From contig NZ_JAAMFB010000016.1 of the NCBI RefSeq assembly GCF_013322225.1, forward strand, positions 1 through 64,000: a stretch of DNA of 64,000 nt, given 5' to 3'. The stretch is from Agrobacterium larrymoorei (GTDB lineage Bacteria; Pseudomonadota; Alphaproteobacteria; Rhizobiales; Rhizobiaceae). Every line of letters starts with the position of its first letter. Position 1 is the stretch's first letter. The notes beneath the pieces were generated by a model that searched no databases, was not told the origin of the DNA, and saw nothing but the letters and a program-made list of their open reading frames with translations. A program made the translations under genes and the position numbers. This document shows positions 27,692 to 43,272 of the stretch, piece after piece.

Positions 27692-27716
27692 AAAAAAAGG
27701 CCCCTTTGAGGAGCCT
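27692..27716 (-). terminator. Attenuator terminator of ilvI leader
   Basis: On the minus strand AGGCTCC pairs with GGGGCCT (one G-T pair) around TCAAA and is followed by TTTTTTT. It lies between the leader peptide and ilvI, not at a gene end, as expected for transcription attenuation. Confidence 0.85.
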
Positions 27717-27722
27717 CGTTCA

Positions 27723-27769
27723 GCGCATGGGTGCTTTCGCCGGATGGTCACACCACCCTGCCCATGCGC
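27723..27769 (-). promoter_or_regulatory. Leader hairpin upstream of the attenuator
   Basis: GCGCATGGG (from 27769 down to 27761) inside the leader coding region pairs perfectly with CCCATGCGC (27731 down to 27723) between the leader stop and the attenuator. A ribosome stalled over the Val/Leu/Ile codons would alter this pairing. It is the likely pause or switching element; an explicit antiterminator pairing was not derived. Confidence 0.65.
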
Positions 27770-27804
27770 CTTCCCACCACGATAAGTACGTTAAGATTTT
27801 TCAT
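27748..27804 (-). CDS. ilv operon leader peptide
   Basis: An 18-residue peptide, MKNLNVLIVVGRRMGRVV, with eight Leu, Ile or Val residues, encoded directly before the ilvI attenuator. Scarcity of charged branched-chain tRNAs would stall the ribosome in this frame and allow readthrough into ilvIH. There is no Shine-Dalgarno sequence before its ATG. A -35/-10 pair (27836-27841 and 27813-27818) with 17-base spacing places the predicted transcript start at, or next to, the A of this ATG, so translation is probably leaderless, as in the Sinorhizobium trpL leader. It is too short for routine gene callers. Confidence 0.82.
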   Translation of the reverse strand: MKNLNVLIVVGRRMGRVV

Positions 27805-27812
27805 GGGGCGGA

Positions 27813-27841
27813 GTGTTAGTCATAAAGGAGGCATCCGTCAA
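27813..27841 (-). promoter_or_regulatory. Promoter of the ilvI leader
   Basis: Reading the minus strand, TTGACG (27841-27836) and TAACAC (27818-27813) are separated by exactly 17 bases, a good sigma-70-type pair. Eight bases separate the -10 from the leader ATG, so the A of the ATG is the expected start site. Confidence 0.7.
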
Positions 27842-28026: not shown

Positions 28027-30009
28027 GTGTTCAACGACGATCTTCGCAGATCCGCTAAAGCTGGCGAACAAGATCGCCGCGATGAACTGACGGCGGGCAA
28101 CCGTCGTCTTGGCCATGTCATTTCCTGTACGGGCTCGCGCGCAACGATTTCCGCAACGACCGAACCAGGCAATCAGGAGCTTGCCGAGTTATGGTCCATC
28201 GGCCGTCTCATCTCTATCGATCTCGGCGAAACGCGTGTCGCTGCGCTGACCAATTCCATGACGACGGAAGGGAAAAACTGGTCGGATAAACATAGCAACA
28301 CGTTACTGATCGAAGTGGAATTGCTCGGCGAAATCTATCGCACCACAGATGGCGCAGAACGCTTCTCGAGCGGTATCTCCCGCTATCCTTATCTTGGCGC
28401 CGTAGCGCATCGTATCCGCTCCAGCGATCTCATGCGCATTTATGAGAATTCGGACAGGGGCTCCAGCGTCGTCGGCAAGCTTACTCAAGATGACAGCATC
28501 GATGCGACGATCAGTATTCCGGAAATGCTGTCCAAGCATTTCGCCGTTCTCGGCTCCACCGGCGTCGGCAAATCCACGGCAGTCTCGCTGCTTCTGAACA
28601 AGGCTATCGAAAAAGACCCGAAGCTGCGCGTCCTTATTCTCGATCCGCATAACGAGTTCGCAGCCGCCTTTCCGACCACCTCGGTCGTCATCGATACAGA
28701 CACGCTGGACCTGCCCTTCTGGCTGATGAAACTGGAAGAATTCGCGGAAGTTTTATTCCGCGGTCGGCGACCCAATGCCGAAGAGCTGGATATTCTGCGC
28801 GATCTCGTCCCTGAAGCGAAACGCGCTTTTCGCGGAACGGAGAATGCGCCACTACGCCGCGCATCGGAAAAATCATCGCTTACCGCCGATACGCCTGTTC
28901 CCTACCGCCTGGCAGACCTTCTGGCGCTGATCGATGAGCGGATCGGGAGACTGGAAGGGCGAAACGACAAACCCGTGCTGCGCAATCTGAAAATGCGCAT
29001 CATGTCTGCCGTCAACGATCCGCGCTATCACTTCATGTTCTCCAACAGCACGATCAGCGATACGATCATGGAGACGGTTGCGCATATCTTCCGCGTGCCG
29101 GGAGAAGGAAGACCGATTTCCGTTTTCCAACTGGCGGGCATTCCCTCCGAGGTCGTCAATTCTGTCGCATCAGTCCTCTGCCGTATGGCCTTCGAGCTTG
29201 CCCTCTGGAGCCAAGGCGCAATCCACACCCTCGTCGTTTGCGAAGAAGCGCACCGATATGTGCCTGCCGACCCCGAGCTTGGTTTCTTCCCGACGCGACA
29301 GGCCATCGCCCGCATTGCCAAGGAGGGCCGCAAATACGGCGTGTCGCTCGGCATCATCACCCAGCGTCCCGGCGAACTGGACCAAACCATCCTGTCGCAA
29401 TGCTCGACGGTCTTTGCAATGCGGCTTTCCAACGAAAGCGATCAGGAAATCATCCGCAACGCGGTTCCGAATTCGTCTTCTTCCACCACCAGCTTCCTCT
29501 CCTCCATAGGCAATGGCGAGGCGATAGCGTTCGGTGAGGCGATCACGGTACCCATGCGCATGCGCTTCAATCGCGTGCCGCAACACGTCCTGCCCAAAGC
29601 CAACAGCATCGTCACGCCGATCCACGACGATACGCCGGACACAGTGGACCTGCGCTCCATCGTCAAACGCATGCGGGCCGTCGCTGGCCCGGATATTTCA
29701 GGCTTTCGCCAGAGCTACGACGCGCAATTGGCGAAAGATACCGACGATGAAGAGCTGGACAACTGGAAGCGCGAATTCGGCACGGGCCTTGAAAGCGGCG
29801 ATGAACCCTATCGACCGGATATGCTGCCAAGAGGCCACGCTGGCTCCATACAGCGCGCGCCCTCACCGGCTTTAGACCCAGAAAACGAATTTCGCAGGCA
29901 CGAATTTCAGCGGCAGGCGACCCGCTCGTTCTTCACTGAGGAAAACAGGTCATCCTTGCGTGAGACCTTGATGAAGAAACCGCTGGGCAGTCTCTATAAA
30001 AAGGACTGA
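28027..30009 (+). CDS. HerA-like P-loop ATPase (DUF87)
   Basis: A 660-residue HerA/FtsK-superfamily ATPase. An N-terminal beta-barrel (HAS-barrel-like, residues ~25-145, starting LGHVISCTGSRATISA) precedes the ATPase: Walker A GSTGVGKST at 176-184, LILDPHNEFAAAF just after, Walker B HTLVVCEEAHRY near 400 with the catalytic EE, and a sensor-like IITQRPGELDQTI near 445. HerA proteins are hexameric DNA translocases that usually act with the nuclease NurA or Sir2-type partners in end resection or defence. No such partner is adjacent, so this is an orphan HerA of unknown role. Its stop abuts the miaA stop. Confidence 0.85.
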   Translation: MFNDDLRRSAKAGEQDRRDELTAGNRRLGHVISCTGSRATISATTEPGNQELAELWSIGRLISIDLGETRVAALTNSMTTEGKNWSDKHSNTLLIEVELLGEIYRTTDGAERFSSGISRYPYLGAVAHRIRSSDLMRIYENSDRGSSVVGKLTQDDSIDATISIPEMLSKHFAVLGSTGVGKSTAVSLLLNKAIEKDPKLRVLILDPHNEFAAAFPTTSVVIDTDTLDLPFWLMKLEEFAEVLFRGRRPNAEELDILRDLVPEAKRAFRGTENAPLRRASEKSSLTADTPVPYRLADLLALIDERIGRLEGRNDKPVLRNLKMRIMSAVNDPRYHFMFSNSTISDTIMETVAHIFRVPGEGRPISVFQLAGIPSEVVNSVASVLCRMAFELALWSQGAIHTLVVCEEAHRYVPADPELGFFPTRQAIARIAKEGRKYGVSLGIITQRPGELDQTILSQCSTVFAMRLSNESDQEIIRNAVPNSSSSTTSFLSSIGNGEAIAFGEAITVPMRMRFNRVPQHVLPKANSIVTPIHDDTPDTVDLRSIVKRMRAVAGPDISGFRQSYDAQLAKDTDDEELDNWKREFGTGLESGDEPYRPDMLPRGHAGSIQRAPSPALDPENEFRRHEFQRQATRSFFTEENRSSLRETLMKKPLGSLYKKD

Positions 30010-42777: not shown

Positions 42778-42924
42778 GTCCTATCCTCCAGTTTTCCGGC
42801 GCATTTTAGCGACCGGTTGAACAAGAAGATGTTCCAACCTCATTGCGACGTCAAGAATTGCGCGCAACCTTTCATCGAAATGTCACGAGACCTCTTTTCT
42901 AAGGCAGCAGAAATGCCTATATGA

Positions 42925-43272
42925 CCCTTGCCGGATGCAAATCCGGCTATGGCGATAAACTGTCGGTGTAATAAGCCTATTGGACCCGGGGGCGGTACCC
43001 GGCGCCTCCACCAAAAACCGGCGGCCTCTCGTGAAGGCCGGCTTTTGATGGGGGCGAAATAGGATCGACAAGGGTGTAAAGATCGGTCTTTCGCTCGGCA
43101 TGATACCGCCGTTATCGGGTCACAAGTGTAGTTGCAAATGACAACAACGCTAAGGAATACGCTCTCGCTGCCTAATGGCGGTGCGGGAATTCCGCTCTAA
43201 GTCCTTACGGTTAGCCCCGTAAGGCGGGGTTCGGAGGTACCTGGCAACAGAAACCTCCACCTTCTCCATTCC
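42925..43272 (+). ncRNA. ssrA: tmRNA, circularly permuted two-piece alpha type
   Basis: The acceptor piece comes first and ends GGCGCCTCCACCA (CCA at 43011-43013). A short spacer with a GCCGGC-type hairpin separates it from the coding piece, whose 5' GGGGGCG (from 43050) pairs with CGCCTCC to rebuild the acceptor stem. The tag frame GCA AAT GAC AAC AAC GCT AAG GAA TAC ... TAA (43134-43175) encodes ANDNNAKEYALAA, ending in the ALAA degron. This is the alphaproteobacterial permuted form, matured into two RNAs. It rescues stalled ribosomes with SmpB. Outer ends are approximate. sspB follows about 120 bases downstream. Confidence 0.95.

Follow-up and report, generated by a model that had tools for sequence, protein, structure and literature searches.

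The ilvIH operon of Agrobacterium larrymoorei is probably controlled by a ribosome-dependent transcription attenuator, in which an 18-codon leader peptide would be translated from a leaderless transcript starting at, or some 2 nt from, A27804. In the window, by which we mean the whole 64,000-nt stretch of DNA analyzed, the elements of this leader and the two genes behind it lie on the minus strand, as follows.

27841-27836, minus strand: -35 element TTGACG, from the sequence; 134 of 188 leader clusters have TTGAC 34-39 nt upstream of an in-frame leader ATG
27818-27813, minus strand: -10-like element TAACAC, 17 nt after the -35 element and 8 nt before the ATG, with the geometry of the genome's own trpL
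27804-27748, minus strand: leader ORF ilvL, 18 codons (MKNLNVLIVVGRRMGRVV) and the stop codon TGA at 27750-27748
27789-27775, minus strand: control codons V6 L7 I8 V9 V10 of ilvL
27770-27722, minus strand: hairpin P1, formed by 27770-27761 with 27731-27722, the end of the ORF being inside it; from folding and covarying pairs
27758-27742, minus strand: inner hairpin, stop codon at its loop; from folding, all 7 of its pairs being changed on both sides in one or more of 46 sequences
27717-27692, minus strand: intrinsic terminator, hairpin 27717-27697 and T7 at 27698-27692
27802-27682, minus strand: covariance-model match to RF02502 (Atu_C8), presumed to be the released attenuator sRNA
27642-25837, minus strand: ilvI, acetolactate synthase large subunit (NF006581, 1218.7 bits, cut-off 974)
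25814-25242, minus strand: ilvH, acetolactate synthase small subunit (NF008864, 222.9 bits, cut-off 119)

This arrangement had been proposed from the letters of the DNA alone, and on re-reading the sequence the frame, the promoter spacing, the stem 27769-27761/27731-27723, the terminator with its T7 and ilvIH all hold. Leucine, isoleucine and valine occupy 8 of the 18 ilvL codons, with ilvIH downstream. When the 51 bases following the ATG were shuffled 20,000 times, 19 shuffles gave an open frame with a run of at least five such residues. The fold of the leader (z = -3.2) was equalled by one shuffle in 200. The start codon is ATG and is preceded by TAACACTCCGCCCC, which has no Shine-Dalgarno (SD) sequence. 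The promoter is absent from the output of a sigma-70 pattern scan of the window; its support comes from conservation rather than from its fit to the consensus. The interval from the ilvI leader to miaA holds a gene for a HerA/DUF87-type ATPase (Pfam PF01935, 166.5 bits; 28027-30009, plus strand), oriented divergently from ilvI.

The ilvL frame recurs in close relatives, being found in all 32 loci read from the genus (of 39 genomes). These share the leader MKNLNVLIVVGRR MGR(M/V)V (in full, MKNLNVLIVVGRRMGR(M/V)V) with TTGAC at -37. Clustering at 80% identity reduced the leaders to 188 clusters, 134 of them from the family. A run of at least four Leu/Ile/Val codons is present in 182 of the 188, a figure biased upward because the reading frame was chosen by that run. 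The valine codons of the control block alternate between GTG and GTA. Every one of the 188 leaders carries a run of at least four T preceded by a hairpin.

The leader stems also show the paired substitutions that were sought in relatives, both in P1 and in the inner hairpin. Among the 134 family leaders, the three most strongly covarying column pairs are pairs of these two hairpins. Two further hairpin pairs fall within the top eleven ranks, and the others there join neighboring columns of the same region. In 46 of the 134 sequences, pairing is retained in 93.3% of cells and 12 of 16 pairs are changed on both sides; the inner hairpin is weak at its outermost pair (unpaired in 24 of 45). None of 500 shuffles reached the observed covariation score, and 11 of 500 matched the number of further pair types. 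Some leaders replace Arg-Met-Gly with Arg-Thr-Arg and keep the stem, so selection here appears to act on RNA structure rather than on the peptide tail.

Start of leader translation

Distances from TTGAC to the leader start separate into two groups, and few leaders have intermediate values. The leaderless type, with TTGAC 34-39 nt before an in-frame ATG, comprises the 134 clusters noted above (119 from the family, 15 from elsewhere). The SD type (33 clusters; 9 and 24, respectively) has TTGAC 50-66 nt upstream of the start and, in most cases, a Shine-Dalgarno sequence. Neither type could be assigned to the remaining 21 (6 and 15).

SD energies and motifs were computed on a first version of these classes (126 leaderless, 31 SD and 31 remaining clusters), using an anti-SD sequence that we take to be appropriate; the motif counts are independent of it. 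The 16S tail was not found in this genome or in five others. Median SD energy is -2.6 kcal/mol in the leaderless type and -7.1 kcal/mol in the SD type (Mann-Whitney p 3e-12), where 29 of 31 clusters reach -4.5 kcal/mol or better and 24 of 31 have an SD-like motif. The clusters lacking a start type are at -5.1. Counted against leaderless translation, 26 of the 126 leaderless-type clusters have an anti-SD duplex of -4.5 kcal/mol or better and 17 have an SD-like tetramer; 109 have none of the motifs sought. Start codons are ATG in 126/126 leaderless-type clusters and in 24/31 of the SD type (the others GTG), under a start-picking rule that favors ATG in both groups; the final leaderless label, which gave the 134 clusters, demands ATG and takes precedence.

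Among the named loci listed, TTGAC stands 34-39 nt before an in-frame ATG in 119 of 119, and this is the furthest-upstream ATG in 110; they are a selected set, because they were located by a conserved-core pattern. As a control, 46 mechanically called ATG ORFs of at least 200 codons were taken from the window, and TTGAC occurs at -34 to -39 in one of them. The same promoter-to-ATG geometry recurs at the genome's own trpL (MNTVSKNIANWWWVS), which reads TTGCCA-N17-TAACAA-N8-ATG.

L367, position 1199 of the reversed locus, reverse strand: ATG of the genome's own trpL leader

The trpL of Sinorhizobium meliloti is described as leaderless in excerpts of the literature. With TTGAC as close as 34-39 nt before the ATG, a 5' leader of the ordinary kind does not fit. 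Given the conserved promoter spacing, the geometry of the genome's own trpL and the leaderless Sinorhizobium trpL, ilvL is very likely translated from a leaderless transcript, whose start we infer to be A27804 or a base no more than about 2 nt from it. The lack of an SD sequence and the boundary of the Rfam model inside the ATG lend this further indirect support.

A FastTree tree was built from 183 IlvI proteins, 162 of them labeled with a start type. The two types need at least 8 changes on it, whereas 200 shuffles of the labels gave a mean of 30.4 and a minimum of 25. The start type is inherited, then, but seems to have been switched repeatedly among relatives. The leaders make up a natural series of a single regulatory RNA with two modes of translation start. 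Since hairpins and control codons are nearly unchanged across the types, the role of leaderless initiation in coupling transcription to translation can be asked of them.

Relation to Atu_C8 and to known attenuators

The leader matches RF02502, the Rhizobiales sRNA Atu_C8, over model positions 1-122 of 122 (106.8 bits, gathering score 50, E 1.8e-22), as a single copy in this genome. Model position 1 corresponds to 27802, the G (third base) of the leader ATG rather than its A. A second Rfam match, SpF41, stays below threshold with 22 of the 52 bits needed. Atu_C8 was reportedly discovered by Wilms et al. in 2012 by sequencing A. tumefaciens RNA. Elsewhere in the window, an alphaproteobacterial tmRNA (RF01849, 300.7 bits) occupies 42891-43261 on the plus strand.

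Counting matches with E up to 0.001, RF02502 was detected in every genome searched from the genus (39/39), in 146/151 from the family, in 161/297 from the order (where 49/297 exceed the gathering score) and in 0/14 controls. The five family genomes lacking it measure 1.2-2.0 Mb, and no intact IlvI orthologue was found in them: the search returned nothing in two and otherwise a 31-residue fragment, pieces with stops and a 27% paralogue. Four smaller genomes that have RF02502 carry ilvI at 71-76% identity. We read 246 loci, 187 from the family and 59 from outside it; the latter were hand-picked among the matches listed, mostly stronger ones, from 149 matching non-family genomes. In 242 of the 246, ilvI follows on the same strand. 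The remaining four (L013, L014, L099 and L205) precede an MFS transporter.

Named relatives with the leader include Agrobacterium, Rhizobium, Ensifer, Neorhizobium, Shinella, Mesorhizobium and Ochrobactrum/Brucella (at least 119 loci). Among the matches listed, the IlvI of the window is closest to the A. pusense protein (96.7% identity), which points to an Agrobacterium host. One contig binned as a gammaproteobacterium (L267, an Arenimonas MAG) has an ilvI leader of the typical rhizobial form and an IlvI with 85% identity, likely a binning error.

Attenuation of this operon is not a new idea. Vitreschak et al. are said to have predicted branched-chain attenuators for alphaproteobacterial ilvIH in 2004. 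Excerpts of later work describe a cis-regulatory element upstream of S. meliloti ilvIH (SMc01431), citing that 2004 study (PMC2573895), and an ilvL leader CDS with attenuation at Caulobacter ilvIH (PMC4117421, Fig. 6C legend; the text says ilvBN). Gene and class of regulation are those of the window leader, and the predicted attenuator and our leader are very probably one element. In the excerpts available, neither PMC2573895 nor PMC4117421 terms these leaders leaderless. RF02502 is likewise the same RNA, filed as an sRNA under a name and description from which the ilvI leader peptide is absent; a catalogued sRNA family is hereby tied to a leader-peptide attenuator. Among the results listed from the open-licence literature, none states that Atu_C8 is the ilvI leader or that an alphaproteobacterial ilv leader is leaderless. 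Nor does any word beginning with "ilv" occur in the available main text of an A. tumefaciens survey (PMC3738593), transcription start site maps of S. meliloti (PMC3616915) and Bradyrhizobium (PMC4842269), or S. meliloti Ribo-seq (PMC10117765).

The sequence-only reading had suggested an ilv counterpart of the leaderless trpL design. The leader type is supported; the leader is not the first of its kind, and its RNA was already an Rfam family. According to the excerpted text of PMC11857589, the C. glutamicum ilvBNC leader MTIIRLVVVTARRLP is leaderless or starts within 1 nt of the transcript start; PMC4046766, as far as excerpted, cites a paper on a C. glutamicum leader lacking a ribosome binding site. 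The Streptomyces lividans leader peptide IlvL (MRTRILVLGKRVG) is likewise called leaderless in the portion available of PMC8079986. As excerpted, both share with the window leader the branched-chain codons and an acetohydroxy acid synthase operon. The S. meliloti trpL/rnTrpL, in what is available of its description, shares the leaderless leader peptide, the released sRNA and the order Rhizobiales, with Trp codons where ilvL has Val/Leu/Ile. With alphaproteobacterial ilvIH attenuation predicted and actinobacterial leaderless ilv leaders known, this kind of switch is a known one. The new points are the repeated switching of start type and the leader copies before an MFS transporter.

Proposed mechanism and alternatives

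Under the attenuator reading, a 70S ribosome would initiate at the 5'-terminal AUG. With ample charged Val, Leu and Ile tRNA, it would pass V-L-I-V-V and reach the stop codon; as this codon lies inside P1, a ribosome completing the frame would open the hairpin. RNA polymerase would then halt at the terminator and release the RNA of about 120 nt that is filed as Atu_C8. When the charged tRNAs are scarce, the ribosome would pause on the control codons, which by footprint reasoning should leave it at the base of P1 or immediately ahead of it. The hairpin could then form beside the terminator, and more polymerases would read into ilvIH. Our best guess is that P1 weakens termination by adjacency, with no competition for base pairs.

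The layout had been called a classic attenuation layout, which is right for the leader codons, hairpin, terminator and ilvIH, but no antiterminator is detectable. Masked folding, pairing of the terminator arm, duplex energies, all-pairs covariation and hairpin overlap were all used to look for a classical antiterminator, and none was found. With the 5' part of the leader masked, which mimics a stalled ribosome, the terminator stays in the minimum-energy fold in 134/134 family leaders (131/134 unmasked). Before its partner is made, the terminator arm has a mean pairing probability of 0.38 in family leaders and 0.43 in the others, and the few early partners listed disagree with one another. Terminator arms are on average less complementary than shuffles to every upstream region in 16 of 16 comparisons; for the whole upstream region the mean z is +1.14 (134 family) and +0.49 (54 other). 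Duplexes at p < 0.05 occur in 0/134 family and 2/54 other leaders. With the terminator persisting under masking and its arms so poorly complementary, no classical antiterminator is seen, which counts against the attenuator reading.

This result is not proof, because the duplex test missed the E. coli his attenuator, and the contiguous cores of 5-7 bp that it finds in the genome's own trpL, E. coli trp and E. coli ilv are not significant individually. The match in the own trpL is 5 bp (alone not significant), whereas ilvL has no contiguous match to its terminator arm. At maximal extension, P1 and the terminator overlap in 31 of 188 leaders (median gap 5 nt), and in the window they abut. In C. 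glutamicum ilvBNC, by contrast, the antiterminator hairpin, which begins at nt 36-38 and adjoins the terminator, overlaps it by a GCC trinucleotide, according to excerpts of PMC11857589. If the lack of a visible antiterminator holds, it would question the architecture that such attenuators are thought to require.

An attenuator of the proposed kind could also work with a short 5' leader, its transcript starting several to about 20 nt upstream and having a weak or no Shine-Dalgarno sequence. The 33 SD-led clusters among the 188 (TTGAC at -50 to -66) lend this some substance, as do the poor match of TAACAC to a -10 element and the missing promoter in the scan output. Nevertheless we consider it very unlikely: the distance of 37 nt between promoter and ATG in the window is that of the 134 leaderless-type clusters, RF02502 begins within the ATG, and the geometry of the own trpL is identical. 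A chance layout, in which an unconstrained short ORF happens to precede an unrelated terminator, has a practically negligible probability. ORFs do arise mechanically in six frames (38 of at least 80 codons in the region, mostly overlapping), but conservation, covariation and codon content contradict this explanation, and a chance ORF was rejected on the conservation of the frame among relatives.

The leader might instead serve mainly as a gene for a trans-acting sRNA and/or peptide, like rnTrpL/peTrpL, with a terminator that amino acids regulate little. Rfam files the RNA as an sRNA, no antiterminator was found, copies also stand before an MFS transporter, and trpL products are reported, in excerpts, to act in trans. 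We nonetheless regard it as unlikely that this is the main role, because the Val/Leu/Ile codons are retained through synonymous change, the RNA is followed by ilvI in nearly all loci and absent together with ilvI, and the peptide sequence varies where the stem varies. Cis attenuation, the reading we prefer, and trans-acting roles of the sRNA or peptide may coexist.

Leader copies before other genes

Among the 14 named loci listed that lack ilvI, 12 have a leader copy before a Bcr/CflA-like MFS transporter (the others are L279 and L354). Two of the transporters were compared with family libraries:

L292, 5197-6456: MFS transporter with a leaderless-type ilv leader upstream; Bcr/CflA-like, Pfam MFS_1
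L321, 5573-6829: MFS transporter with a leaderless-type ilv leader upstream; Bcr/CflA-like

Both score 175-187 bits against the Bcr/CflA family, whose cut-off is 200.9. The same combination occurs at L013, L014, L099, L205, L257, L270, L301, L304, L322, L332, L338, L342, L344 and L349. MFS proteins of the 12 named loci are 60-100% identical to that of L292, and those of L013, L014, L099 and L205 are 50-64% identical to it. In L013 and L014, which belong to another family, the MFS leader scores 83-85 bits, against 47-58 for the native ilvI leader of the same genomes. That the MFS leader outscores the native one suggests transfer. Thirteen more distant MFS homologue loci have no ilv-type leader. 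The roughly 600 nt upstream of the genome's own leuA-like gene showed no leader with a run of four Leu/Ile/Val.

A broader proposal would unite these strands: an attenuator in which P1 acts by adjacency without an antiterminator, switched repeatedly between leaderless and SD-led starts within one order, and copied in front of an efflux-type MFS transporter. We think it unlikely that all of this is correct. If it were, a ribosome pausing at the MFS leader copy would turn on an exporter. Duplicate acetolactate synthase genes, both preceded by a leader, are present in some genomes (L102/L115, L045/L123, L204 and L228/L229).
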